A stretch of 64,000 bases of DNA from Rhodothermales bacterium. GTDB taxonomy: Bacteria; Bacteroidota; Rhodothermia; Rhodothermales; JANQRZ01. The notes beneath the pieces were generated by a model. The model saw only the letters and a program-made list of their open reading frames with translations. It had not been told where the DNA came from and did no database searches. This document shows positions 17,021 to 31,129 of the stretch, in pieces (within the stretch, counting starts at the first letter, position 1; each line of letters starts with the position of its first letter). Made by a program: the position numbers and the translations under genes. The stretch lies in the NCBI GenBank assembly GCA_028284265.1, contig JANQRZ010000003.1:248001-312000 (forward strand), given 5' to 3'.

Positions 17021-17485
17021 ATGGGTCAGCAGCAACTTCTCCTCCTCGTCCTCGGTATCGTGATCGTCGGTCTCGCCGTCGTGGTCGGTATCCAGGCTTT
17101 CGGCGAGAACCAGAAAAAAGCCAACTCTGATGCCCTCGTCAACGATGCCATCCGCATCGCTTCTGACACGCAGGCATGGAAGCTCAAGCCGGCTGCCTTC
17201 GGCGGCGGTGCCAACGTGACGGGCATGACGGGTCTTACGATGGCCCAACTCGGCTACGAGACGACCGGCACCGGTTCCAGCGAGCGCTACACCAACCTCA
17301 ATGGTGGGTTCCAGCTCGAAGCCTCGAACACCTCGGCCATCATCACGGCACAGGACAGCAGTGGCTTGGACAACTTCGTGAAGGTGGGTGTCTTCGGCAC
17401 CGATCCTGAGTGCATCGCAACGGCCATCGGTACCACCGAGCCGTCCGATCCGTCCAACCCGGACGCTACGAACTGCACGCTCTAA
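17021..17485 (+). CDS. MGQQQ-type pilin-like protein 1
   Basis: A 154-residue secreted or membrane-tethered protein with the type IV pilin build: two residues (MG), then QQQLLLLVLGIVIVGLAVVV, a hydrophobic helix running straight from the N-terminus, followed by a short amphipathic helix (ALVNDAIRIASDTQAWKLK) and a small, Gly/Thr/Ser-rich globular domain ending in Cys. A later pair of cysteines (ECIA and NCTL, near the C-terminus) could form the disulfide loop typical of pilins. It lacks the usual basic prepilin leader and Glu5, so cleavage by a classical prepilin peptidase is uncertain, although G|Q at residue 2 is a plausible site. A paralogue with the same N-terminus follows at 17812, then PilC and PilB. 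Confidence 0.72.
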   Translation: MGQQQLLLLVLGIVIVGLAVVVGIQAFGENQKKANSDALVNDAIRIASDTQAWKLKPAAFGGGANVTGMTGLTMAQLGYETTGTGSSERYTNLNGGFQLEASNTSAIITAQDSSGLDNFVKVGVFGTDPECIATAIGTTEPSDPSNPDATNCTL

Positions 17486-17811
17486 GTGTGACAGTCTGGG
17501 GCTGAACCTACGGGTCAGTCACACCTTGGCGGCATCTCTGTCGGGCTTCGGCTCGGCGGGGATGCCGTCTCTGTTTTCGTAGGGCTACTGGCTAGGACCG
17601 TCTCTCTTGGGATAGGGAGCATGAGGTTTGCAGAGAGGGTCGAGAGAAGGCTTAAAGACCTGAGACCGTTTGCTTTGGCAATGAAGTTGCCTAAGTCCTA
17701 GGTATACGGCATAATCGGGCCATACGCCCTAAAATGCCATCTTCAATCACAAAAGGAACCGGTGTCGGTTGATTTTCTCCGCCGCGAGCCGATACAACGG
17801 TACAGACACAC
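17486..17811 (+). other. Intergenic region between the two MGQQQ pilin genes
   Basis: No gene is seen in these 326 bases. It holds two tandem stem-loops right after the first pilin: GTGTGAC/GTCACAC (arms near 17486 and 17519) and then the stronger terminator at 17530-17578. Farther on there are small inverted repeats (GGCAA/TTGCC near 17677-17691) and the ribosome-binding region of the second pilin. A separate promoter for the second pilin is expected here, but I cannot assign its hexamers. Confidence 0.5.
17530..17578 (+). terminator. Rho-independent terminator after pilin 1
   Basis: CGGCATC (17530-17536) pairs with GATGCCG (17561-17567). Inside it CGGGC-TTCG-GCTCG makes a UUCG-capped inner stem. 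TCTCTGTTTT follows. It would separate the first pilin transcript from the downstream genes, allowing high pilin expression. Confidence 0.72.
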
Positions 17812-18222
17812 ATGGGACAGCAACAGCTTCTTCTTCTGGTGATCGGCATTGTTCTCGTTGGCTTGGCAGTCGTGGCTGGTATCTCGGCCGTGCAGAAGTA
17901 CACGCGGCAGGATGAAGCCGACGGTCTTCTGGACCGATCTCTCGCGATTGCCTCGCAGGCCGTCTACTGGAAAACCAAGAATGACCCCTTCGCCGGTGGC
18001 GACCAGTCTTACGCGGGTCTTGCCGTGGACGGCATGGCCAAGCTAGCGCTCGACACGGCGACCGTCCGAGGCACTTTTGACATCACGGGTGCGTGGCCCG
18101 ACTCCATTGAGGTCACAGCCGTCAGTGCGCGTTATCCCGATATCGGTGTGCGCGTCACGGTTGATCAGTACGAGATCAAACGGACCGTCGTGGCCTACGA
18201 CAGTTCGATCACACTGAACTAA
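17812..18222 (+). CDS. MGQQQ-type pilin-like protein 2
   Basis: A 136-residue paralogue of the protein at 17021. The first 24 residues are almost identical (MGQQQLLLLVIGIVLVGLAV), then come a polar helix (DEADGLLDRSLAIASQAVYWK) and a beta-rich domain that is different from the first one and lacks cysteines. The shared N-terminus and different head suggest a shared membrane insertion or polymerisation path with different surfaces, as for major and minor pilins. It lies 40 bases upstream of the PilC gene, so it is likely in the same operon as pilC. Start and reading frame are clear; function as a pilin is inferred from topology and context. Confidence 0.72.
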   Translation: MGQQQLLLLVIGIVLVGLAVVAGISAVQKYTRQDEADGLLDRSLAIASQAVYWKTKNDPFAGGDQSYAGLAVDGMAKLALDTATVRGTFDITGAWPDSIEVTAVSARYPDIGVRVTVDQYEIKRTVVAYDSSITLN

Positions 18223-18262
18223 CAATCTGCGGGCTAACCCCGCACACACTGCAAGCGCCGCT

Positions 18263-19615
18263 ATGGGAGAGTTCAGATTCAATGGGCTGAGTGCCGCGGG
18301 CCAACCGGTGCAGGGCACCGTCTACGCACCGAACAAGCGGGCCGCGCAAAAGAAGGTCGCGGACCTCGCCGAACGGCACAAGTTCACCCTGCGCGATCTT
18401 GATGAGCGGGTCTTCTTTCGCTACAAGATCAAGCACCCGAGCGGCAAGGTCGTCACGGGTGAGCAGAAGGCGTTCTCGTCCGAAGAGATTGAGTCGGCGC
18501 TCTCGCGCATGGGGATGGAGGTGCTCTCCGTCCAGAAGAAACTCTTCAACATGCAGCGCAAGCCGCCGAACGGCGATGTCATCATGTTCGTCCGGCTCGC
18601 CGCCAACCTGCTCTCGGAGAAGATGCCATTCAACGAGGTGCTGAATCTCCTCGTGGCGGATATCTCGTCGGCCAGTCTCAAGCAGACCATCCGCGATATC
18701 AACTCCGACCTCAAGGGGGGGGTGGAGGCCAAGCAAGCTTTCATGAAGCACCAGGACAAGCTCGGCAAGTTCACCGCCTACATGCTGGGTGTGGCGAGCC
18801 AGTCTGGTAACATGAGCGAGATCTACGAGGCCACGGCCAAGTTTCTCGAGCGGCGCGACGAGTTCAAGAAGAGCATCCGTAGCTCGATGATCATGCCGTC
18901 GGTGACGATCCTCGCCACACTCGGCGTGTTCGTGTGGTACATCTGGTTTATCGTTCCGGCCACCGCCGGGCTTTTCGCCGACTTCGACGGCATCGAACTG
19001 CCGCCGCTGACGGCGTTCTCGATTGTCATGGCTGGCTGGCTCGATCAGAATATGATATGGCTGCTTCTCGGCACGGCAGTGGTCGTAGGCGGAGTCGTAG
19101 CGTTCCTGCGTAGTCCGAAGGGAACGTTCTGGGCGCACAAGAACATGATCCGTATGCCGATCATGGGGTCGCTTCTGCACAAGCTCAACATCGAGGTCTT
19201 CAGTCGTGTCTTTGCGATCCTGTACTCGGGAAGCGGTCAGAACATCGAGGTCATCAAGGTGGCGGCTGAAGCCTGTGGCAATACCTACATGGAGCACCAA
19301 GTCAAGACCGTCACCATTCCGATGATGGTGGCTCAGGGTGCAGACCTTGTCCGGGCAATGGAGGCCGCAGGGGTGTTCACCCCGATGGCGATTGCCCGAT
19401 TCCGCACAGGTTCCGAAACTGGTGCTGTCCGAAAGAGCGCACAGCAAATGGCCGACTACTACGAGAAGGAAACCTCGCTGAAGCTGGAAGTGGCTCTTCA
19501 GTCGATTCAGACTGTGGTGTCGCTTTTCATCGGCATCATCGTGGCGTTGCTAACGGTGCTCTCGGCTGAGACGGCACTGATCCGGCCTAGCTCGACCGAT
19601 CTGATGGGTCAATAA
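18263..19615 (+). CDS. pilC: Type IV pilus/type II secretion inner membrane platform protein PilC (GspF)
   Basis: A 450-residue GspF/PilC family protein, the inner membrane platform that couples the ATPase to pilin addition. After an N-terminal region that starts FRFNGLSAAGQPVQGTVYA (the usual beginning), two GspF domains follow: the first around residues 105-235 (FVRLAANLLSEKMPFNEVLNLL and the later GxAxQSGNM-like segment), the second around 305-440 (FSRVFAILYSGSGQNIEVIKV, MVAQGADLVRAMEA, GSETGAVRKSAQQMADYYEKE). Three membrane helices fall near residues 210-237, 262-284 and 411-436. It is preceded by pilin 2 and closed by a terminator. Confidence 0.9.
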   Translation: MGEFRFNGLSAAGQPVQGTVYAPNKRAAQKKVADLAERHKFTLRDLDERVFFRYKIKHPSGKVVTGEQKAFSSEEIESALSRMGMEVLSVQKKLFNMQRKPPNGDVIMFVRLAANLLSEKMPFNEVLNLLVADISSASLKQTIRDINSDLKGGVEAKQAFMKHQDKLGKFTAYMLGVASQSGNMSEIYEATAKFLERRDEFKKSIRSSMIMPSVTILATLGVFVWYIWFIVPATAGLFADFDGIELPPLTAFSIVMAGWLDQNMIWLLLGTAVVVGGVVAFLRSPKGTFWAHKNMIRMPIMGSLLHKLNIEVFSRVFAILYSGSGQNIEVIKVAAEACGNTYMEHQVKTVTIPMMVAQGADLVRAMEAAGVFTPMAIARFRTGSETGAVRKSAQQMADYYEKETSLKLEVALQSIQTVVSLFIGIIVALLTVLSAETALIRPSSTDLMGQ

Positions 19616-19661
19616 TCACCGGCGATTGAGAACCACCGATGGTGGGCCGTCGACGGTAGCA

Positions 19662-19706
19662 AACGGGACGTGTGGGCTTGAGCCACCCACACGTCCCGTT
19701 CTGTAT
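19662..19706 (+). terminator. Rho-independent terminator after pilC
   Basis: A perfect 15-bp stem (AACGGGACGTGTGGG at 19662-19676 with its complement at 19686-19700), a 9-base loop, then CTGTATT. It shows that the pilB gene has to start after it, at 19825, and that pilC and pilB are in separate transcription units. Confidence 0.82.
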
Positions 19707-19824
19707 TGCATGGACGCCGAGAAATCGGGACGCCCCTGTAAAGAGAATACACCGGTTTGCCGATACCATAGGCGATCTGAAATCTGTGGTTCGCCCGTTC
19801 CTCCTGTCTCTTCGTTTGACGCCC

Positions 19825-21876
19825 ATGTCCGACCGCCACGCATCTGATGACAACTCGCTTGGGGCACATGGTTTCCGCGTCCAGTCCATGGTAGAGGATG
19901 CCGAGGATCAAGGTGGATGGGTCTCGCTGAATAATCTGAGTTCACCTCCATCAGCACCATCTGAGGTTCCAGCAGCTCCCGCATTAGATAGTCTCCAAGA
20001 TATTGGAGCGAAGTCAGGTTCAGATGGAGACCGGGCCTCGTCATCTGAGGCCACCGGGCCCAAAGTGGCCTACACGAGCCAAGGGCAAGACCGAGTCGTT
20101 CAGGGCCTGTTGAGCCGAGGCGTTGTGTCGGCCGCGGCGGTAGCCGCGGCGACCGAGCTGAAGCAGCAGGAGCGGCGGAAAGAACCGCTCTGGCGAGTGC
20201 TCGCAGAAGACCCAGAGGTGGACCGCGACGTGGTCTACCAGCAGGCCGCACTCACGTATGCGTTCCGCACAGCACCCATCAAGGAGCGTCCGCCGGAAGT
20301 CGAGTTCGTCAAGACAGTGATGGATTCTCTGAAGGAGGATGCGCGGGAGCAGCTTCTCGCTCTCCACGTAGCGCCCTATGGCTATGTGCAGGACCAGGGC
20401 ACAGGGATGCGGAAGCTCGTCTTCGTCACGGACGATCCGATGCGGCCAGACCTTCTGCGGATCATGCATGCGTTGGAGCTGGAACGCTTCGAACTGTACT
20501 ATGCCCCGCGCACCGCTGTCCGCAAAGTGCTAGACGAGGCCTATCCTCGGAAGAACGAGTACCTCGAACGCATCAGGGATAGCAACGACGACTCGGCGTT
20601 TGACCTCGGGGCCAGCTTTGAGAGCAAGGAGAACACGCTCCTCGATGAAGAGGCCCTCGAAGCCGAGATCAGCCGAAGCGCGCTTATCAATCTCGTTGAG
20701 GCGGTGCTCATCGAGTCCGTGCGTCTTGGCGTCTCGGATATCCACATCTACCCGAACGCTAAGCGCAAGACGGAAATCCATTTTCGGGTTGATGGCCGAC
20801 TTCAGCACTGGCACACCGAAGAGAAGGGCCACCCCGAAGCGCTTCTCGCGGTTCTGAAAGACAACGCCATCAACGTGGACCGCTTCGAGCGCGATACGGC
20901 GCAGGACGGCTTCATCCAGCGCTGGGTGGACGACACGCTCATCCGCTACCGCGTCTCGGTGCTCCCGATTGCCAACGCTAACCCCGATGTGCGTGCCGAA
21001 AGCATCGTCATCCGCGTGCTCGACGACCGGAAGGTGCTCACCGACCTCGCCAAGCTTGGCCTACTGCCCTTCGCGCTGGAGCAGTTCAACAAGGCGATTC
21101 GTCAGCCTAATGGCATGGTGATCCTTACGGGGCCAACGGGTTCAGGTAAGTCCACGACGCTTGTCGCGGCACTCAGCCAAGTCGTTAGCCCCGAAGTCAA
21201 CGTGCTCACGGTCGAGGACCCGGTCGAGTACATGATTCCCGGCGTTCGCCAGATTCAGATATCACATAAGCTCTCACTCGAGGCTGCGCTCCGAGCTATT
21301 CTCCGGCACGACCCCGACATCGTCATGGTCGGTGAGATGCGTGACAAGGCCACCGCGGAGCTCGGTGTCAAGCTCGCCAACACGGGGCACCTCACCTTCT
21401 CGACGCTCCACACGAATGATGCGCCAAGTGCCGTCAGCCGTCTGTACAAGATGGGACTGGAGCCGTTTCTTATCGCCTATGCCATTAACCTTGTTGTGGC
21501 ACAACGGCTCATGCGGACGCTCTGTCCCGACTGCAAAAAGGTGGAAGAGGTTGATGCCCTGCTCGCCAAGCAACTCGGGTTCAGCGAGGAGGAAGTTGCG
21601 GAACTCGATTTCTACGCTCCGGGCGAGGAGAAGAACTGCCCCACCTGCAAGGGGCGGGGCTACAAAGGCCGCCGTGCTGTAGCCGAAGCGCTTTACTTCT
21701 CGCCTGCGATCCGCGAACTGATCGTTGATGCAGGCGAAACGATTGACGAGGACGGTATCCGGGAGAAAGCCGTCGAGGAGGGGATGTTGACGCTGCAGGC
21801 TTCCGCGCGTGAGCTAGTTCGGATGGAAGAGACAAGTCTGGAGGAGATGCTCCGCGTGACCGCAGGCGAGGCCTGA
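19825..21876 (+). CDS. pilB: Type IV pilus assembly / type II secretion ATPase PilB (GspE)
   Basis: A 683-residue GspE/PilB ATPase that powers fibre assembly. A disordered head of about 75 residues is followed by an MshEN-like domain (GLLSRGVVSAAAVAAATELK, near residues 95-114), then the catalytic core: the Asp box LTVEDPVEY is intact, Walker A is GPTGSGKSTT (about 436-445), Walker B GEMRDKATAE, and the His box STLHTNDA. A four-cysteine zinc site (CPDCKK near 567, CPTCKGRG near 604) is present, as in PilB/GspE and not in PilT. An in-frame ATG at 19672 sits inside a terminator stem and is rejected; 19825 begins MSDRHASDDNSL. Confidence 0.92.
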   Translation: MSDRHASDDNSLGAHGFRVQSMVEDAEDQGGWVSLNNLSSPPSAPSEVPAAPALDSLQDIGAKSGSDGDRASSSEATGPKVAYTSQGQDRVVQGLLSRGVVSAAAVAAATELKQQERRKEPLWRVLAEDPEVDRDVVYQQAALTYAFRTAPIKERPPEVEFVKTVMDSLKEDAREQLLALHVAPYGYVQDQGTGMRKLVFVTDDPMRPDLLRIMHALELERFELYYAPRTAVRKVLDEAYPRKNEYLERIRDSNDDSAFDLGASFESKENTLLDEEALEAEISRSALINLVEAVLIESVRLGVSDIHIYPNAKRKTEIHFRVDGRLQHWHTEEKGHPEALLAVLKDNAINVDRFERDTAQDGFIQRWVDDTLIRYRVSVLPIANANPDVRAESIVIRVLDDRKVLTDLAKLGLLPFALEQFNKAIRQPNGMVILTGPTGSGKSTTLVAALSQVVSPEVNVLTVEDPVEYMIPGVRQIQISHKLSLEAALRAILRHDPDIVMVGEMRDKATAELGVKLANTGHLTFSTLHTNDAPSAVSRLYKMGLEPFLIAYAINLVVAQRLMRTLCPDCKKVEEVDALLAKQLGFSEEEVAELDFYAPGEEKNCPTCKGRGYKGRRAVAEALYFSPAIRELIVDAGETIDEDGIREKAVEEGMLTLQASARELVRMEETSLEEMLRVTAGEA

Positions 21877-22117
21877 TGTCCCATCTTCTGATTAGCAGAC
21901 TGCTTCGTGTAGTAAGGTAACCGAGGCCGGTCATATCTACTCGCCTGCTTTCGCTCTCAGGGACGTAGGACAACGTAAGGCGCACGATCTCGTGGCAGGT
22001 GCAGAAGTAAGAACGTGACAATGGGTTGAGATGAAATGCTGCACGAATCCGAGGAATGTGTTTCGTTGGTAGGATGATGTCCGCCTCACCACAGTTTTGT
22101 AGTACACGACCGGCCCT

Positions 22118-22735
22118 ATGCCTCAGACTCTGCTTGGTCTCCTTGCTCTTGCTATCCTGATGCAGTTGACGTTCAGCCAGCAGCAGGTGACCGTGAGGTC
22201 CTACCAAAGTCAGCTCCGTGACGAGTTTAGTGTTTCTGCCTCGGGGATGCTGATGGAGGCCATGGAACTCATTGCTGCGCGGCCATTCGATGCCGCCTCG
22301 TCGCCGCAACAGATTCTTAGCGCAGGTGGTCTACCGGCGGAGAGCGATTTCGGCTCGATCGGACCCGGAGGAGGGGACACCGGGTGCGATCTCTTCGCCA
22401 TCAACCTCAATACGTGCAATGACCTTGACGACTTGGCTCAAGATCGCTGGTGGAACGCAGATGTTCAGTTGAGCAACGGATACTCACTGCCATTTGAGGT
22501 CAAGGTAGAAATCGCCTATGTCGACGGCGAAGCTCCAGATGTGGCTGTAGGAGGCCCCACATCCACCAAGCGTGTCGTGCTCTCGGCGCGGACATCCATG
22601 CTGCCGCGGGACAGTACGTTCATCTACCTGGAACGAGTCATCGCCTATGATTCTGAGAAGGCTACAGCAGACTGTATTCGATATGAGGGAAGCGGCGATG
22701 AAGACATCATCGCGACCTGCTCTAGTCAGCGATAA
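22118..22735 (+). CDS. Pseudopilin-like single-anchor protein A
   Basis: A 205-residue protein with an N-terminal hydrophobic helix starting at residue 3 (QTLLGLLALAILMQLTFSQQQ) and no basic leader, then an amphipathic helix (SVSASGMLMEAMELIAARPFD) and a globular domain with three to five cysteines (GCDLFAINLNTC, and ADCIRY...ATC near the end). That is the layout of minor pilins of the GspH/PilV class. I find no family signature. It opens a run of three similar genes (22118, 22792, 23580) between pilB and the pilT-like gene, so it is likely a minor subunit of the same apparatus. 241 bases separate it from pilB and I see only a weak hairpin in that gap. Confidence 0.62.
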   Translation: MPQTLLGLLALAILMQLTFSQQQVTVRSYQSQLRDEFSVSASGMLMEAMELIAARPFDAASSPQQILSAGGLPAESDFGSIGPGGGDTGCDLFAINLNTCNDLDDLAQDRWWNADVQLSNGYSLPFEVKVEIAYVDGEAPDVAVGGPTSTKRVVLSARTSMLPRDSTFIYLERVIAYDSEKATADCIRYEGSGDEDIIATCSSQR

Positions 22736-22791
22736 CGCTGAAAAATGCCCCTAAGGCCTTCTGCCATCCAAGCGTTAGTCAGGAACGTTAA

Positions 22792-23517
22792 ATGATTCTC
22801 ATACTCGACCATATCGTAACGACGATTATAGTCACCACGCTGTTTGTCGCAGCGATAGCGACCCAGATGCGGGTGCAAGAGACAGGGATGGCTCAGGTTT
22901 CATCGCATGCTGCGAAGACCAAGGCGCTCTCGCTGGGTCAGTGGCTGGATGAAGACATCGTCGCTCTCGGCGAGAATATCGTAGACAACAGTGCCCGGTT
23001 CGACAACCCGACACCTAGTACACTCGGCATCTATGTACTCGACGGCGGGGGCAATCCTCAGGCCCAAACGATCACCTACACATCGAATTGGCAGTTTTAC
23101 AGTGATCGGTTCGTCGGTGCCGTAAAGCAGCGTCGAGCGATACGATATCAACTTCAACTTCAGGCCGACTCTATCGAGGTCGAGATGCCGACCGGGTTTA
23201 CCTACAAGCGCCCGACCTTCCAGCTCATACGAGACCAGTCCGTCTGGAAAGCTGTGAACCCGATTACGGATTCTGCTTCGTTCACGTCTGCCGACTTCAC
23301 CGAAGATGGGCGAAGTGTGGCTACGCTCTCTCACTTTCGCATTCAATTGCTCGACAACGACGGTGTTGCCTTTGCAGATAACGACCCCGTTGCGCCCGAC
23401 CAAGCAAGCTATGTCCATGTGGACTTCTCGATGATTCCAGAACTGGAACTCAGACGAAACTATCTGCGCGAACTCTACTGGACCACCACTCTGAAGGTGC
23501 GGCCCTTCTGGGGCTAA
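22792..23517 (+). CDS. Pseudopilin-like single-anchor protein B (PilW/GspJ-like size)
   Basis: A 241-residue protein with one N-terminal helix (HIVTTIIVTTLFVAAIATQM), followed by a helical stem and a beta-rich domain of about 190 residues. The stem and size resemble PilW/GspJ minor pilins, which have a long N-terminal helix and a large head, including a conserved glutamine-rich surface. No prepilin cleavage motif is seen, as in its neighbours. The gene begins 57 bases after the previous one, so the two are probably co-transcribed. Assignment depends on topology and neighbourhood only. Confidence 0.62.
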   Translation: MILILDHIVTTIIVTTLFVAAIATQMRVQETGMAQVSSHAAKTKALSLGQWLDEDIVALGENIVDNSARFDNPTPSTLGIYVLDGGGNPQAQTITYTSNWQFYSDRFVGAVKQRRAIRYQLQLQADSIEVEMPTGFTYKRPTFQLIRDQSVWKAVNPITDSASFTSADFTEDGRSVATLSHFRIQLLDNDGVAFADNDPVAPDQASYVHVDFSMIPELELRRNYLRELYWTTTLKVRPFWG

Positions 23518-23579
23518 CTCCGAACCGCTTTACCTAGCCACAACCGCTAGTTCATCCTGATCACTCACTACCACCTACC

Positions 23580-25016
23580 ATGGGAAAGGCCGCTCTACTT
23601 ATAGCCTTCGGCGCGTCGATATTCATCGCGCAAGGCATGCTCAGTCAGCGAGAAAATGAGCATCATACAGCAAAGAACCAAGGCAACTTCGAGGAGAGCG
23701 TGATCGCGCGCGAGATCGCCCGCTCGGGATTTAATGTCGCGATGAACATTCTTCGTGAGCATGGAAACGATATCCATGCGGGCATTGCGGCGATAAACAA
23801 ACACGGTGGAGGCAACTACCTCGAAGGACAGCACCAAGGGGGTACGTTCCGCGCTCGTGCAGAGCTTGTCAATGGGCACACCGTGCGTGTCACCTCAAGC
23901 GGGTACTTTGGCGGGGAGTTCGCAGATCTGAACGACGCTGCCGTTGGGAAGTGCTCTGAGCCTGATCCGTACTCGGGCGATTACTACACAGGAGGGTGTC
24001 ACACCATGTCTGATGACAGTCCTCTTTATGAGTATGAGCTTCCGAGTGGCGACCCGCTCACGGCCAAGCTCGAGTGTGGTAAGCTTGAGACGACGTTCCT
24101 CGAGTCACAGGCAGGGTACTGCTCGGCAGTGTACCTCCAGCGGACGTTGCCGGACTCCACGAACGCCAACCCTGATCCAGAACCGGCGGAACTGCTCTTC
24201 ATTCCCGGTAACAACCGTGATGGTCAGCAACTGACAGTCAACAAGTACGTACGCGGCGGCACCCAGATGAACTTCTTCATCGGTGTGGATAAGAACTGCA
24301 GTGAGCGCCCGACCGGATTCCCTCCAATCGAGAGCTTTCCTATCTTCGAAGGGACGGTCGACAGTCCGGCACCCTATGACCACCTCCACTTCGCGCTGGA
24401 GGAGAACGTCAACAGCCTTGGCGACATGATCGAGACGCCGTGGGCGTTCACGGAGATGCACCCGAGTGGGGTGGACGACAGTGGTGCTAATGATATCCAG
24501 CGCTGGCGCATCGGATGGGAAGACCAGCACATCACCGCTTGGAACAACCCGGACTCCGAGAACCCGTCGCAAAGCCTCCAGGCTCTCAAGCGCCTTGGCT
24601 ACGATGGAAATGGCTGGCCTGACGAAGATGCGTTGGGATATCGAGACCTCCGTGACTACGGCAGTCGCCCGGACTTCAGCGACCAGGTCATCGAGGTGAA
24701 GCTGGTAGAAGAGACCGACCTGTCCCTGTGTGGGTTCGAGGAAGAGGAGTCTGGCGGTGGAGAAGAGTCTGGTGGCGGTGAAGAATCCGGCGGCGGTGAA
24801 GAAGAGTCCGGTGGTGGGGAAGAACCCGGCGGTGAAGAAGAAGAGGAAGAGGAGCCGGTCATCGAGTGCGCGTGTCCGAATAACAACAGCAACAAGACGG
24901 TTGCGCTTTGGCACCAGAAAGGTAGCAGCCCGGGCAAGGTGATCTGTGTTGCAGAGAATAAGGTGAACCGTCATCTGAATAAGCACAATGACCACGTCAT
25001 CTGTCGGGGTGAGTAG
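23580..25016 (+). CDS. Large PilX-like surface protein with an acidic Gly-Glu repeat and a Cys-rich C-terminal domain
   Basis: A 478-residue protein. It starts with a hydrophobic N-terminal helix (ALLIAFGASIFIAQGML), then the helix EESVIAREIARSGFNVAMNIL, which matches the helix found at the start of PilX-type minor pilins. A large head of about 300 residues has scattered cysteines (GKCSEPDP, GGCHTM, LECGK, GYCSAVY, KNCSERP). From residue 387 to about 427 it has an ESGGGE-type repeat rich in Glu and Gly, then ECACPNN. The last 40 residues (KTVALWHQKGSSPGKVICVA, then a VNRHLNKHNDHVICRG tail) resemble a small domain common in secreted Bacteroidota proteins with a xICHxPPGNPxxxxTICVxxxAVxxHLxHGD motif. 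It is a good candidate for a fibre tip adhesin. Confidence 0.65.
   Translation: MGKAALLIAFGASIFIAQGMLSQRENEHHTAKNQGNFEESVIAREIARSGFNVAMNILREHGNDIHAGIAAINKHGGGNYLEGQHQGGTFRARAELVNGHTVRVTSSGYFGGEFADLNDAAVGKCSEPDPYSGDYYTGGCHTMSDDSPLYEYELPSGDPLTAKLECGKLETTFLESQAGYCSAVYLQRTLPDSTNANPDPEPAELLFIPGNNRDGQQLTVNKYVRGGTQMNFFIGVDKNCSERPTGFPPIESFPIFEGTVDSPAPYDHLHFALEENVNSLGDMIETPWAFTEMHPSGVDDSGANDIQRWRIGWEDQHITAWNNPDSENPSQSLQALKRLGYDGNGWPDEDALGYRDLRDYGSRPDFSDQVIEVKLVEETDLSLCGFEEEESGGGEESGGGEESGGGEEESGGGEEPGGEEEEEEEPVIECACPNNNSNKTVALWHQKGSSPGKVICVAENKVNRHLNKHNDHVICRGE
24736..24861 (+). repeat. Short in-frame Gly-Glu repeat tract
   Basis: A low-complexity coding tract inside the PilX-like gene, built from variants of the unit E-S-G-G-G-E, with purine-rich DNA (GAAGAGTCTGGTGGCGGTGA and like units). 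It probably forms an acidic flexible linker between the head and the C-terminal Cys domain; tracts like this can change length between strains. Confidence 0.72.
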
Positions 25017-25040
25017 ACCAGGCAGAGAGTAAAGCAGAGA

Positions 25041-25080
25041 CAAAGAGCGGGGACGGCGAAGGTGCCGTTCCCGCTCTTTG
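25041..25080 (+). terminator. Hairpin terminator after the minor-pilin genes
   Basis: A 17-bp stem with one G-T pair (25041-25057 with 25064-25080), 6-base loop. The 3' arm ends CTCTTTG, a short T run. It likely ends the transcript of the three pseudopilin-like genes. Confidence 0.7.
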
Positions 25081-25248
25081 CGTAGGGGGGCGCATTACGC
25101 TTCGTGTCGGGTAGAGGTACGATTTGCCCGACTGCATTCGGTGGAGAGGGTCAGATGGGGGGCTGACGTATAACCGGTGCTTTGGCTCGCCTTTTGAAGA
25201 CGCGGGAAGCACTCGAAAGCCTCAACCCTAAGCCCGCCGATTTCAAGC

Positions 25249-26556
25249 GTGAACCCCCCACCCGCAACACCATCGCTCGCTCAGGTTTCGCCGCTGGACC
25301 ACCCCGATGTCGTCTCGCCTGCGTCTCGAGCGGGCGCACCCCGAACGCCGGGGCTTCCTGACTTCGTGCGCTCGCTCGCGCGCTCGGCTCCGGCCTCGCT
25401 TCACGGGAAAGACCGGCTCCGCTACTACTCGGAGCACGTCAACCGGTTTACCGATAATCAGCGTGACGTGCTTGGGGCGTACCTAGACCGCTTCATCGAT
25501 AAGATGAGTGGTCTGGGGGCATCGGATATGGACTTGGGTGGGCACGCTACCTCGGGTCGGGTTTGGTACCGCGTGGATGGGGATAAGCGGCCCTACGACG
25601 AGACGGGCACCATCAACAGCGACGAGATCGACATCCTCCTGCTCAACATGGCGGGTGAGATGCAGCAGCATGAGCTGTTTGAGATGGGTGCTATCGACTT
25701 CTCGTATCAGCTTGACGGGCCGAAGGGGCTGTTTCGCTTTCGAGCGACGATGTACTTCGACTATCAGCACCTCGGGCTTTGTATGCGTGCCATCGCGCAA
25801 GAGCTGCGGCCGCTGAAGAGCGTCGGGTTTCATCCGGCGATTGAGCGAGGGCTGATGTTCGAGCACGTCCGCGACGGGCTGACGCTCGTCACGGGGGTTA
25901 CGGGGTCTGGTAAGAGTACGACCCTCGACGCCGTCGTGGACGCCAACAACGAGAGCTTCTCGGGCCATATCGTCATCATCGCGAAGCCGATTGAGTACAT
26001 GCACACCCCGAAGCACTGCATCGTCCGCCACCGCGAGGTGGGGCAGGACGTGGGGTCCTTCAAAGACGGCATCGTGCAGTCGCTTCGGCAGGACCCCGAC
26101 ATCATCGTCGTGGGCGAGATGCGTGACCCGGAGACGATCTCCAGCGCGCTCGAAGCGGCAGACTCGGGTCACAAGGTCTTCTCGACGCTTCACACCTCCA
26201 GCGCCATCGAGAGCCTCGACCGTATGATCGCGGAATACCCGCATGAGGAGCAGGACCGCGTCCGCAACCGCCTCGCCGATACGCTGCGGTGTGTCGTTTC
26301 GCAGAAGCTCTTGCCGAAAGTGGGCGGGGGGCGTGTGCTTTGCAAAGAGGTGCTCTGGATCACGCCGTCCGTGCGCGCCGCTATCAAGAATGAGAATGTC
26401 GGCGAAATCTACCAGATGATCTGGGAGGGTGGTCGCCTCGGGATGGTCACGCTGGAGCAGGACTTGGTGCGCCTGCTTAAGGAACGGAAGATCACGCCCG
26501 AAACTGCCATCAACTTTGCCAACAACAAGCGCCGCCTCCAGCAGCTCATTCAGTAG
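25249..26556 (+). CDS. pilT: PilT/PilU-like type IV pilus ATPase with altered Asp box
   Basis: A 435-residue PilT-type hexameric ATPase. After a 60-residue Pro/Ala-rich lead comes the PAS-like N-terminal domain (ASDMDLGGHATSGRVWYRV; the family normally has SDLHL), then RecA-like core: Walker A GVTGSGKSTT (about 216-225), Walker B GEMRDPETISSAL, His box STLHTSSAIES. The Asp box reads IIAKPIEYMH, so the normal ED of IEDPIE is Ala245-Lys246 (25981-25986). There are no zinc cysteines, in line with PilT rather than PilB. The GTG at 25249 is the first start in the frame. It precedes the PilM-PilN fusion gene by 75 bases. Role in retraction is inferred from the family; the altered box may change its rate or make it a PilU-like partner. 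Confidence 0.88.
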   Translation: MNPPPATPSLAQVSPLDHPDVVSPASRAGAPRTPGLPDFVRSLARSAPASLHGKDRLRYYSEHVNRFTDNQRDVLGAYLDRFIDKMSGLGASDMDLGGHATSGRVWYRVDGDKRPYDETGTINSDEIDILLLNMAGEMQQHELFEMGAIDFSYQLDGPKGLFRFRATMYFDYQHLGLCMRAIAQELRPLKSVGFHPAIERGLMFEHVRDGLTLVTGVTGSGKSTTLDAVVDANNESFSGHIVIIAKPIEYMHTPKHCIVRHREVGQDVGSFKDGIVQSLRQDPDIIVVGEMRDPETISSALEAADSGHKVFSTLHTSSAIESLDRMIAEYPHEEQDRVRNRLADTLRCVVSQKLLPKVGGGRVLCKEVLWITPSVRAAIKNENVGEIYQMIWEGGRLGMVTLEQDLVRLLKERKITPETAINFANNKRRLQQLIQ

Positions 26557-26631
26557 GCCACCACTTGGCTGCGCTTCGCTCGACGGTTTATTCCACCCCT
26601 GACTGCGCCTGCCTTGGCGCGCTTCAAGCCC

Positions 26632-28656
26632 ATGAAGAAGCTTCCTGACTCCATGCAGACGCACTTTGGGTCCGACGGCGGTCCCTTTGAAGAGAGCGTC
26701 TCCGAAGAGCCGAGCGGCGATGGTGCTGCTCCCGTCTCATCCGAAAAGGAGTCGCCCTCCAGCCCGGCCAAGGCAGACCGACGCAGGCGTAGTTTGAGTG
26801 CTCCGGTGCTCGGCGTCTATGTTACGTCCGATGCCGTGCATGGCATCCTTGTGCGTGAGGCCGGAGACCGCTATGGCGTGTTGCGCCCGTTCACACGTCA
26901 GCGCAGTGTGTTCGACGCGGAAGTGCCGGACCTCGCCGCGATGACGCCCGAGGGCGAGGCAACTGCGACGGAAGACGACATCACCGTTCAGTTCGGCGAT
27001 GCCTCGTCGGGGCTGAGCGCAGAAGACCTGTTTCTGGACTCCGAGTTCAGTGACCTCAAGGGCATCGATGCCCCTGAAGGCGACTTCCAGTCTCAGTCCC
27101 CGAAGAAACAGACCACGCCGGTTGTTTTTGAGCTCAAAGACATCCTTGACGAGTGCGAAGCAGCAGGGCATGAGAAGCCCCCGACCGCGTTCTGCCTCAG
27201 CCAGCCCGACGTCGAGTACGTTGAGCTGTTGATTCTAAAGGACAAGAAGGAGCAGTCCGAGAAAGACAAAAGTAAGAAAGAGGCAAAGAAGGCCAAGAAG
27301 AAAGAGCAGGAGGACGTTGCAGAGGCTCCCGGTTTTCCTGCTGTCAAGCGGGACAAACTGCTGGCCCGACTCGAAGAGGAGTACGAAAACCCCTTCGAGA
27401 AGGAGCGGGTTGCCTTTCTGCCGATGACCCCGCGCGACGGGTTGCAGCGGTTCCTTGCCGTCGTGCCCTCGCCCGAAGAGTCTCTCGCTGAGTCGCTGGA
27501 GCTTCTCCGTGAGCAGGCCGGAATGCGGTCGGTGCCGTTCCGCTCTGTCGATGCCGAAGTGCCCATCCTCGTCGGCCTGACCCGGTGGGCGTTCCCCGTC
27601 GAGGCGCACGAGAACACCGCCATCGTGCGGGTAGGCAACGAGGACACCCTCGTCATTCTGTTGCAGGGCCATACGCTTCATCACGTCGAGCACATGCGTA
27701 ATGTCTCGACGTTCGACGGGCCGGACACGATTTGCAGCCGCGTGCTGCTCCAGCAGGACGTGCAGGGTGTTGGCACGGTACACAATGTGGTCGTGCTGAG
27801 TGGCGAGCGGGAGAACGAACTGGTCCAAGGGTTCGGTGCCTTTTACCCCGATGCCCAGGTGGGTGCGCTGCGCGGCGGTCTTGTCGAGCGCGGCGTGGCA
27901 CCTCCCGGCTCGGACGTGGGGTTGCCTGCCCAGACGGTTCCGGCGATCGGTATGGCGCTCCGCACGATCATGGAGCGTCAGAAGGACTCGCCGTTCTACG
28001 ATGTCAACATGCTGCCGAAGCGGCTGCGGAAGCGGCGGCGGAAGCTGAACGTCTCGGTTGCGTGGCACACGCTCGTCGCGGGTGTGCTGCTGTTCTTCTC
28101 CGTGCTGTTCTTCGTCGGGCTTTACTTCAGCCAGCAAGGCGACATCGCCGAGGCGCAAGCGCGCGTCGATGCGTACCCCGACGAGATCGACCTCTCCGGC
28201 CCGGCGTTGCAGGCGCAGATAGACAGCCTGCAGAACGCCTACCTCCGCATCAATAACACGCTCAACGTGATCGACTCGCTGCTGGTCGGCAGCGATAAGT
28301 GGAGCCGTGGCCTTGCCCATACCTCGACGGCTTCGTCTTCAAGTGGCAGTGTGTGGGTGTCCTCGTGGGTGCCGAGCGCGCTCGGCCTGAAGATGACGGG
28401 ATCTGCGACGAATCGTGCCCAAGTGGTTCAGTTCGCGGAGCGGATGGATGGCTCCATCGAGCAACTCAGTTTCAGCCAGATCCGGGAGTATCCGGTCTAC
28501 GAGTTCACGCTCGATGCGCCGGTGCGTGACGAGCTACCCGAAGTCGCCCGCTATCTCCGCGAGCAAGCTCAAGTGGCCGATGCGAACCAAGAGCCGCTGG
28601 AGCCTGAGGGTGGCGACCCGCTCCGCGACTACGACGATGGGTCGGTCAACGACTGA
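26632..28656 (+). CDS. PilM-PilN fusion (GspL-like) inner membrane assembly protein
   Basis: A 674-residue protein joining a cytoplasmic PilM-like half to a PilN-like half. Residues 1-55 are a disordered head (Ser/Glu/Pro rich). A PilM-like region begins at about residue 57 (LGVYVTSDAVHGILVREAGD) and continues with the acidic VFELKDILDECEAAG segment, a Lys-rich linker near residues 203-227 (KKEQSEKDKSKKEAKKAKKK) and a long beta/alpha part up to about 455. A single membrane helix follows (residues about 477-500, TLVAGVLLFFSVLFFVGLYF), then a coiled, ferredoxin-like periplasmic part with GLKMTGSATNRAQVVQFAERM, as in PilN. The topology equals GspL. I prefer the ATG at 26632 over the TTG at 26614. 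The next gene encodes PilO and PilP parts. Confidence 0.74.
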   Translation: MKKLPDSMQTHFGSDGGPFEESVSEEPSGDGAAPVSSEKESPSSPAKADRRRRSLSAPVLGVYVTSDAVHGILVREAGDRYGVLRPFTRQRSVFDAEVPDLAAMTPEGEATATEDDITVQFGDASSGLSAEDLFLDSEFSDLKGIDAPEGDFQSQSPKKQTTPVVFELKDILDECEAAGHEKPPTAFCLSQPDVEYVELLILKDKKEQSEKDKSKKEAKKAKKKEQEDVAEAPGFPAVKRDKLLARLEEEYENPFEKERVAFLPMTPRDGLQRFLAVVPSPEESLAESLELLREQAGMRSVPFRSVDAEVPILVGLTRWAFPVEAHENTAIVRVGNEDTLVILLQGHTLHHVEHMRNVSTFDGPDTICSRVLLQQDVQGVGTVHNVVVLSGERENELVQGFGAFYPDAQVGALRGGLVERGVAPPGSDVGLPAQTVPAIGMALRTIMERQKDSPFYDVNMLPKRLRKRRRKLNVSVAWHTLVAGVLLFFSVLFFVGLYFSQQGDIAEAQARVDAYPDEIDLSGPALQAQIDSLQNAYLRINNTLNVIDSLLVGSDKWSRGLAHTSTASSSSGSVWVSSWVPSALGLKMTGSATNRAQVVQFAERMDGSIEQLSFSQIREYPVYEFTLDAPVRDELPEVARYLREQAQVADANQEPLEPEGGDPLRDYDDGSVND

Positions 28657-28708
28657 CACGCTCGCTGACAGCCTGAAAGCTTCTCCGCCCCTCTAGTTCT
28701 CTGCCCCT

Positions 28709-29737
28709 ATGTCAAACGACGCCCTAAACACCCTCGTCCTCTCCGTCGTCCTCGCCCTCGTGGTCGGGTTCGGCGTCTATGTGACGCAACAGAAGCAGCC
28801 AGAGCGGATGGAGCGCCTCGAACAGGAGGAAACCGCACTCCGCTTGCGCAAAGCTGAGGTAGAGGAACTGCTCGTCGAAAAGGCTGGCTCTGCCGAGCGG
28901 GCTGATGCTGCGCTGCGCCGCTGGAACTCCCGGTACAAGGTGCTACCCGAGCATCTTACCTCCCCGGCGGTCGTCGAGTACCTGAACGCGCTCTCCAGTT
29001 CTGGTTTCAAGACGTTCGACATCGCGCTGGCCGGGGTGACGCGCAACGATGCCTTTAGCACGTTGACGTATAACGTGCGGGGCGAGGGGTATTTCGATAG
29101 CCTCTACCGGTTCATTTGGAATGTGGAGAACGGACGCGGCCTCTACCGGATCCGCAACCTCAACGTGGAGGCCATCACGATCCAAGAGGAAAACCCGGAG
29201 ACCGGCGTCGACCGGCGCGAAGACATTGTCGAGTTCTCGATGAGCGTCAACGCTTACTTCGCTGGAGCGGAAGGGATGAGCGCGCCTGACTCCTTGGTGG
29301 TAGTCCCGGATTATGTGCTCCCGGCCCGGACGCTAGCTTCCAATCCATTTTATCCCCTCATCCTTGACGACCTACCACCGAACACCGATAACCTCGTCAA
29401 TATCGAGAGTGATTCGCTGGTCTCCGTGATTGGTGAGGTGGCGGTGTTTCGCGACGAGTTGGGCGCACGCCCGGTTCGTGCCGGAGACCGCGTCTACTTA
29501 GGCACCATTACGCGCGTCGATCCCAACGAAGCACGGCTGGTGGCGGACCTGAACAAGGGTGGTATCCGCGAACGCATCGAGATTGACCTCGCCACCGGAG
29601 AGCGCTACCGGCAGGCCCTCGGAAACTTCCGGCTCGCCCCGCTCAACGGAGCACCGCCGCTCATGGCTCCGCCCGCGCCCGGCACACCCGAAGCCCGGCG
29701 GGCGGCTGCAACGGCAGCGGCCGCTCCCACAAACTGA
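28709..29737 (+). CDS. PilO-PilP fusion (GspM/GspC-like) inner membrane assembly protein
   Basis: A 342-residue protein. It starts with a membrane helix (TLVLSVVLALVVGFGVYVT, residues 8-26), a coiled coil (ERMERLEQEETALRLRKAEV) and a PilO-type domain, with PAVVEYLNALSSSGFKTFDI and YNVRGEGYFDSLYRFIWNVEN. From about residue 225 a second domain reads LVSVIGEVAVFRDELGARPV, then RAGDRVYLGTITRVDPNEAR: a PilP/GspC homology-region (HR) fold that contacts the secretin. The tail is Pro/Ala rich. PilO and PilP are normally separate proteins, so this is a fusion. It starts 52 bases after the PilM-PilN gene and precedes the secretin, the conserved pilMNOPQ order. Confidence 0.76.
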   Translation: MSNDALNTLVLSVVLALVVGFGVYVTQQKQPERMERLEQEETALRLRKAEVEELLVEKAGSAERADAALRRWNSRYKVLPEHLTSPAVVEYLNALSSSGFKTFDIALAGVTRNDAFSTLTYNVRGEGYFDSLYRFIWNVENGRGLYRIRNLNVEAITIQEENPETGVDRREDIVEFSMSVNAYFAGAEGMSAPDSLVVVPDYVLPARTLASNPFYPLILDDLPPNTDNLVNIESDSLVSVIGEVAVFRDELGARPVRAGDRVYLGTITRVDPNEARLVADLNKGGIRERIEIDLATGERYRQALGNFRLAPLNGAPPLMAPPAPGTPEARRAAATAAAAPTN

Positions 29738-29794
29738 TTTGCGCCCCACCCGCGTGAGCACTGCTCACGTTGACATTCCTAGCCCAACGATCCC

Positions 29795-31129
29795 ATGAAA
29801 CGCCAACCGCTCATTCTTCTGCTGGCCCTCGCCTGTGCGTGGAGTGCCGCCCCGTCGGTTCACGCTCAGTCGGTGGACCCGGTCCCGAACCAGCGTCAAC
29901 TCCGCACCTACATTCCGCCGGATCAGGTGGTTTCGTTCCTGCCGGGGACCTCGTTCAGCGAGTTCGTCACGCTTCTCAATCCGATTTTTCTGCAGGTGAC
30001 GGGCAAGCAGATCATCGACCCGGAGGACCGGACGATGCCCATCGGGGTGAGCCTGTCGGGGATGCACTTCGTTGATGCGTTCGAACTGGTCCTCGACCGC
30101 CATCGGCTCGGCTTCCGCGAGACGGAAGACTATTTCATCATCGAGGCGCTGGAGGAAGACCTCGTCCAGATCGTGGCCGATGGCGCGACAGCGCGGGCTG
30201 CTGGGCAAGACGCTGTGCCGCCTGCTACGGCGCTCTCGCGGGAAATCCGCATTGACGCCTACATCTTCGAGCTGAACGTGACCCGGCTGCGCGAGACCGG
30301 GACCAACTGGGCCTCGATCTTCGGAGACGAAGGCGGCGGTGGTGGTGGTGCGGGCGCAGGGGCCGAAGGACAGGTCGCAGGCTTGCAGTTCTTCCTCAAG
30401 ACGGACTCGTTCTTCGACTCATTCGATGACTTCCTCATCGGGCCGGACCAGATCGACTTCAAGGAGATCGTCAACCTCTTCCGCTACTTCGAGTCGATTG
30501 ACGTCGGTGAGACGATTGCCAGCCCGAGTGTTTCTGTCCAGAGTGGCGAAAAGGGTCAGATTCAGAGTGGCTCCGACATCCCGGTCACGCTTCAGGACTT
30601 CGCAGGCAACACGGTCACCCAGTACATTGCCACGGGCGTCATCATCGACGTGACGCCGACCTTGATTTCGGACGCCTCGGATGCGCGCGAGAACCCCGAC
30701 GCGCTTCCGGTGGAGTTTATCCACCTTGATGTGAACGTTGAGAAGAGTGCCGGGCGCGTCACGCAGTCCGGTATCACGATTGACAAGAATCGGACCGACA
30801 CCCAAGTGCTCCTGCTCGACGGCGAGCAGACCGTCATCGGTGGGTTGTTCTCGACCGAGGAGTCGGTGTCGCGCAAGGGGGTGCCGATTCTGATGGACAT
30901 TCCGCTTGTCAAGTACCTCTTCTCTTTCAAGACGAAGACGGTCGTTCAGAAGGAACTCCTGATCGCCCTTCAGGCCCGTGTGGTCGAGCCGCTGCGCGCC
31001 CGCGCCGGTCGCCCGTTCCCGACGAACCTCTACGAGCAGGAGCGCCAAGATGTGCAGCGCCGCCTCGACCGCTTCAAGCCGGGGGCCGGGGAAGACCTGA
31101 GCCTGATCGAGCCGGACGACGTGGACTGA
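29795..31129 (+). CDS. pilQ: Outer membrane secretin (PilQ/GspD)
   Basis: A 444-residue secretin, the outer membrane channel for the fibre. A signal peptide ends in PSVHAQ (near residue 25). A short N-domain (residues 40-130, with FSEFVTLLNPIFLQVTGKQI and the GVSLSGMHFVDAFELVLDRH strand-helix pattern) is followed by the secretin domain: REIRIDAYIFELNVTRLRET, then a glycine-rich loop (residues about 180-192), GETIASPSVSVQSGEKGQIQSG, TGVIIDVTPTLI and the closing DGEQTVIGGLFSTEESVSRKGVPILMDIP, a clear secretin signature. It is shorter than PilQ of proteobacteria, since it lacks AMIN domains. A terminator follows at 31184. Confidence 0.9.
   Translation: MKRQPLILLLALACAWSAAPSVHAQSVDPVPNQRQLRTYIPPDQVVSFLPGTSFSEFVTLLNPIFLQVTGKQIIDPEDRTMPIGVSLSGMHFVDAFELVLDRHRLGFRETEDYFIIEALEEDLVQIVADGATARAAGQDAVPPATALSREIRIDAYIFELNVTRLRETGTNWASIFGDEGGGGGGAGAGAEGQVAGLQFFLKTDSFFDSFDDFLIGPDQIDFKEIVNLFRYFESIDVGETIASPSVSVQSGEKGQIQSGSDIPVTLQDFAGNTVTQYIATGVIIDVTPTLISDASDARENPDALPVEFIHLDVNVEKSAGRVTQSGITIDKNRTDTQVLLLDGEQTVIGGLFSTEESVSRKGVPILMDIPLVKYLFSFKTKTVVQKELLIALQARVVEPLRARAGRPFPTNLYEQERQDVQRRLDRFKPGAGEDLSLIEPDDVD

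Follow-up and report, generated by a model that had tools for sequence, protein, structure and literature searches.

A locus for a very probable type IVa-like pilus with leaderless pilins, working without prepilin processing

The window analysed here, a stretch of 64,000 nucleotides from a Rhodothermales bacterium, carries at positions 17021–31129 a locus of eleven genes, all in one direction on the forward strand, where the initial annotation had counted nine. The first two encode leaderless pilins: major pilin 1 (MGQQQLLLLVLGIVIVG..., 154 aa, 17021–17485) and, from its sequence, major or alternative pilin 2 (MGQQQLLLLVIGIVLVG..., 136 aa, 17812–18222). They are followed by the inner-membrane platform PilC (18263–19615, 450 aa; T2SSF 3.7e-30) and the assembly ATPase PilB (19672–21876), which matched T2SSE at 3.7e-94 and the PilB/GspE NCBIfam model TIGR02538 at 4e-114; PilB probably starts at 19825 (MSDRHASDD) and shows Walker A and B motifs and two CxxC pairs. 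Three leaderless minor subunits come next, A (MPQTLLGLLALAIL..., 22118–22735), B (MILILDHIVTTII..., 22792–23517) and C (MGKAALLIAFGAS..., 478 aa, 23580–25016), and then a PilT-type retraction ATPase (25249–26556) that scored 323.5 bits against TIGR01420 (curated cut-off, 319.1). The locus ends with a fused PilM-PilN (26614–28656), a PilO with a C-terminal extension that is probably PilP-like (28709–29737) and a PilQ-type secretin (29795–31129; PF00263 1e-29), which has a signal peptide and a short N-terminal region and for which TIGR02515 was the best secretin model. The type IVa components PilB, PilC, PilT, PilM, PilN, PilO and the PilQ secretin are all present. Gene order and strand are as given initially, and family searches bore out the identities of PilC, PilB, PilT and the secretin.

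Of the fusions proposed at first, PilM-PilN was confirmed. Its PilN part matched Myxococcus xanthus PilN (1.1e-13), Pfam PilN matched 13 of 30 homologues of the fusion, and the N-terminal part has the PilM fold, the nine best PDB folds for the AlphaFold model all being PilM (best E 6e-13). For the suggested PilO-PilP protein, the PilO part was found by Pfam in 13 of 30 homologues (best 1e-8); the C-terminal part is conserved, Pfam PilP matched 0 of the 30, and a PilP domain there is plausible from the sequence. Pfam and NCBIfam searches gave no useful family for the pilins and minor subunits: their MacB_PCD matches reflect the N-terminal helix only, and ComP_DUS, matched by 4 of 82 pilin homologues at 4e-4, is suggestive. 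Minor subunit A had no database match, B and C had no Pfam match, and none of the three had a credible match among PDB sequences. By position and look we call A PilV-like, B PilW-like and C PilX/GspK-like.

In the AlphaFold model of pilin 1, built with 82 homologues (pLDDT 92.4), a helix spanning residues 3–55 is followed by an antiparallel sheet. Plain Foldseek returned no significant match to this model in the PDB; a DALI-like second look (VIA-align) placed type IV pilins at ranks 1–13 (Z 9.2–5.1), with PilE, PilA4, PilX, PAK pilin and PilV among the top matches and the first unrelated chain at Z 4.7. The pilin profile also gave a weak sequence match to PilA5 (E 0.017), in which residue 9 aligned with PilA5 residue 6. 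As judged by this second-look aligner and the weak profile match, the MGQQQ proteins are type IV pilins by their modelled fold. Their structural register is offset by 3, pilin residue 4 corresponding to mature residue 1 in most of the aligned type IV pilins, and this offset sets Leu8 at the place of Glu5 in ordinary pilins; no Glu was found at mature position 5. A Glu at this position is common in type IVa pilins, not universal.

Is the apparatus a pilus or a secretion machine? The initial annotation had allowed either a pilus or a secretion fibre, and of these the pilus is favoured by PilT, by the pilMNOPQ order and by a PilM part nearer to PilM than to GspL. A T2SS-like machine that secretes by a pseudopilus and makes no surface pilus would share a homologous ATPase, platform and secretin, and would account for a PilM-PilN fusion laid out like GspL and a PilO part that scores weakly as GspM; moreover, a Bacteroidetes T2SS is known in Cytophaga hutchinsonii (PMC5553014). 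Yet PilT-family retraction ATPases, which are absent from the T2SS, occur in nearly all loci (37 of 41 homologous loci, the window not counted), the PilM fold is matched at E 6e-13 before GspL at 3.5e-6, and the secretin is closer to PilQ than to GspD. The locus also gave no N_methyl match, so a leader-bearing GspG-type pseudopilin was not found there, and the host has a separate, classical T2SS, equipped with its own peptidase. The C. hutchinsonii system and other Bacteroidetes "T2SS" are type IV filament systems from the same superphylum that branch with the type IVa pili (PMC5553014; PMC6668835), but the C. hutchinsonii machine comes with an A24 peptidase, CHU_3197, and Pfam finds a GspG-type pseudopilin in it. 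We therefore regard a secretion machine as unlikely and favour a pilus, piliation itself being predicted from the genes.

The subunits of this predicted pilus have an unusual N-terminus. We built a pilin profile without residues 1–5 and ran it on the stop-to-stop frames of 122 loci. This profile, blind to the N-terminus itself, found 170 homologues, 163 of which have start-GQQQ: MGQQQ in 157 and the same motif with TTG or GTG for ATG in 6, next to MGSQQ in 4 and MAQQQ, MAQYQ and MANKE in 1 each. Because TTG or GTG falls exactly at position 1 in these 6 homologues, this position is the start codon. Upstream, 63% of the 170 homologues have an in-frame stop within 5 codons, and 83% have one within 10, which leaves no space for a leader; in about 17% more than 10 codons are open upstream of MGQQQ. 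Of 148 starts, 91 have a Shine-Dalgarno core in front of them, compared with an expectation of 19. Many of the 122 loci had been collected via the motif, and the 40 that were fetched by PilC alone gave the same N-terminal picture. Beyond the N-terminus the pilins are highly divergent, 139 of 149 being kept after an 85% identity filter. All three minor subunits likewise start at the hydrophobic helix in every Rhodothermales homologue aligned. Their starts read M-P, M-Q, M-H and M-W, without Gly or Ala. No class III signal peptide, that is, a leader ending in Gly or Ala before the helix, was found in the pilins of the locus, their homologues or the minor subunits, and the early observation that the two MGQQQ proteins and three small ORFs lack both leader and Glu5 proved correct. 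In the alignment of minor subunit B (22792–23517, alignment A7), most homologues have D/E6, near the expected place of Glu5.

The absence of a prepilin peptidase, also claimed at first, holds for the locus and fails for the genome (24 contigs, 97.9% complete), in which contig C20 encodes a 213-aa A24 peptidase (3e-13). This distant PilD homologue, whose existence had been suggested as a check, lacks the methylase domain and adjoins classical GFTLPE/N_methyl pseudopilins in a classical T2SS with GspE, GspD and PilN/PilO-type proteins, the system to which comparative genomics assigned it. The T2SS region also holds two giant ORFs with RHS repeats (2721 and 2743 aa; L012:9157-17322 and L003:2337-10568), possibly cargo of this T2SS. 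On contig C21 lies a second, paralogous and complete copy of the pilus locus in the same gene order (L013, G000:C21:5001-25000); it has its own MGQQQ pilin and minor subunits, and its secretin is split off, lying beyond three unrelated genes and read from the other strand. Contig C10 carries a lone PilB/GspE-type ATPase (L014:8449-10497; T2SSE 5.9e-98) with no adjoining pilus genes.

Does the pilus go with a peptidase elsewhere? In the class, 118 of 165 genomes carry the locus-type PilC, which the start-GQQQ pattern tracks: among class genomes in both searches it occurs in 78 of 79 with this PilC versus 0 of 25 without it. PF01478 (A24) was over the cut-off in 16 of the 165 genomes; a profile made from FCB-type lineage peptidases matched 15, all at 6e-32 or better and with nothing between there and 1e-3. 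Sub-threshold A24 matches in G109, G149 and G157 were gone with the lineage profile. Within the A24 family, a peptidase is absent from 104 of the 118 PilC-bearing class genomes, including the single-contig G105, G114, G117, G087, G039 and G068, and present in 14; in 102 genomes with the pilus, A24 peptidase, class III prepilins and a second GspF are all absent. Where the peptidase occurs, it accompanies N_methyl prepilins in 14 of 14 genomes (14 versus 0; Fisher p 2e-16) and a second, T2SS-type GspF in 13 of 14 (13 versus 1; Fisher p 2e-14). Outside the class, 53 of 58 MGQQQ genomes have no A24 match over the cut-off, and most of the Ignavibacteriota-type genomes tested lack the peptidase. Among named genomes, those of Ignavibacteriota, Kryptonia, Rhodothermus and Balneolota lack it, and those of Calditrichota, the Zixibacteria genome and 1 of 3 KSB1 genomes have it. 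These comparisons of gene and genome sequences demonstrate both the leaderless state and the absence of the A24 peptidase from most genomes with the system and, judged by gene content, the peptidase, where present, belongs with a separate classical T2SS and not with the pilus locus.

These counts bear on a second alternative, namely that the pilus is an ordinary type IVa one whose leader is minimal: M-G would be cut off after Gly2, either by the A24 peptidase from another place in the genome or by an unrelated enzyme. Gly2 does resemble the Gly(-1) of prepilins, and the host genome has its A24 peptidase on C20. This peptidase family is absent, however, from 104 of 118 class genomes and 53 of 58 outside genomes that have the system, and where found it goes with classical N_methyl prepilins and GspF; the minor subunits, with M-P, M-Q, M-H and M-W, offer no Gly or Ala; and in the structural register it is residue 4, rather than 3, that corresponds to mature residue 1. 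We consider a minimal leader quite improbable, the peptidase counts covering the A24 family.

A decayed locus that no longer makes fibres is more doubtful still. It would agree with an earlier judgement that the gene set is incomplete, pilA and pilD being missing (PMC3534657), but the core genes are all intact and syntenic over several phyla, some genomes keep two copies, and the N-terminus is invariant despite the high divergence of the pilins. That judgement concerned Melioribacter roseus, in which pilT, pilQ, pilB and pilC were present, pilA and pilD "not found" and the set read as incomplete (PMC3534657). Melioribacter-type loci (L203, L192 and L137) carry MGQQQ pilins, and we read the M. 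roseus-type set as a putatively complete one with unrecognised pilins. Finally, a misread start with the leader encoded upstream of MGQQQ, to which the open frames of a minority of loci (up to about 110 codons) might point, is refuted for most homologues by the stops within 5 codons in 63% of the 170 and is opposed by the TTG/GTG swaps exactly at position 1, the ribosome-binding site before MGQQQ and the lack of conserved residues upstream of it, so that we give it almost no credence.

How widespread is the leaderless pilus? A GTDB-wide scan for the start-GQQQ pattern gave at least 80 named loci. Among the matches listed, all but three are MGQQQ frames, many of them directly adjoining PilC and PilB, and they come from Ignavibacteriota, Melioribacteraceae, Kryptonia, Rhodothermota, Balneolota, Calditrichota, KSB1, Fidelibacterota, Zixibacteria and unclassified Bacteroidota; the pilus may also occur beyond this superphylum. 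The three others (L155, L161 and L201) are chance ORFs of 10–12 codons, and the match in G323 (L094) is likewise a chance ORF. In the PilC tree the locus-type PilCs cluster together at a clear distance from the platforms of T2SS and T4P, which provisionally suggests a single PilC clade, the tree having four outgroup rows on long branches. Loci with conserved order and MGQQQ subunits were recovered in relatives, as the initial annotation had proposed to check. Its description of a lineage-specific apparatus stands for the non-standard subunits, which Pfam and NCBIfam miss, and not for the distribution, which spans several phyla from Rhodothermota to Fidelibacterota.

By homology, then, the locus is a type IV filament system, T4aP-like in its predicted working. 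It shares with type IVa pili the platform, the assembly and retraction ATPases, PilM, PilN and PilO, the PilQ-type secretin, the gene order and the pilin fold, and differs from them in its leaderless pilins and minor subunits, the absent Glu5, the fused PilM-PilN and the lack of a peptidase in most genomes. Because it lacks two defining features of the family, the class III signal peptide and, in most genomes, the peptidase, we class it as a variant rather than an ordinary member of this group. The MSHA pilus loci also lack a peptidase gene, and MSHA prepilins keep their leaders. MSH genomes, moreover, always encode a peptidase elsewhere (Denise et al. 2019, PMC6668835). The prepilin peptidase is counted among the core components of type IV filaments (Denise et al. 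2019, PMC6668835) and among their five ancestral parts (PMC10191384, PMC6668835), and a 2023 review of assembly states that prepilins need processing before they assemble (PMC10191384).

What could be the mechanism of assembly? We think it very likely that the genes of the locus build a retractable, type IVa-like pilus that works without prepilin processing. Ribosomes would make the pilin already "mature", with neither leader cleavage nor N-methylation. Gly2, which never varies among the MGQQQ members, permits methionine removal, and deformylase and methionine aminopeptidase probably expose it to give NH2-Gly-Gln-Gln-Gln. The pilin would insert N-in/C-out as a signal anchor and wait in the inner membrane until PilC-PilB extracts and polymerises it, with PilMN-PilO aligning the machine, the secretin as the exit and PilT for retraction. 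The near-invariant glutamines are located where ordinary pilins have the methylated N-terminus, near Glu5; we speculate that Gln3-4-5, with which the helix begins, form hydrogen bonds in the filament core that replace the contact between Glu5 and the methylated N-terminus. More broadly, the system is likely a multi-phylum branch of type IV filaments without leader, peptidase or N-methylation, in which pilins are translated assembly-competent and Gly-Gln-Gln-Gln takes the place of Glu5 and the methylated N-terminus.

If this reading is true, type IV filaments can do without the leader, without its cleavage and without N-methylation, several bacterial phyla seem to lack a step that is regarded as universal for such fibres, and nature provides a test of the roles of Glu5 and methylation. 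It would also account for pili having been overlooked, or judged incomplete, in Rhodothermota, Balneolota, Ignavibacteriota and their relatives, for which start-GQQQ offers a simple search motif. Within the open-access papers, the scope of our literature search (subscription journals and preprints lay outside it), we found no earlier description of MGQQQ pilins or of peptidase-free type IV pili.

Two variations in gene content were seen among the homologous loci. In Balneolaceae, a PF00027 cyclic-nucleotide-binding protein (1.6e-11; L074:7727-8230, and correspondingly in other loci) lies between PilB and PilT, the place of the three minor subunits in Rhodothermales. Several Ignavibacteria-type genomes (L104, L189, L168, L101 and L100) carry 2–4 tandem MGQQQ pilins, a few of which are truncated after the helix, as if they were recombining silent copies.
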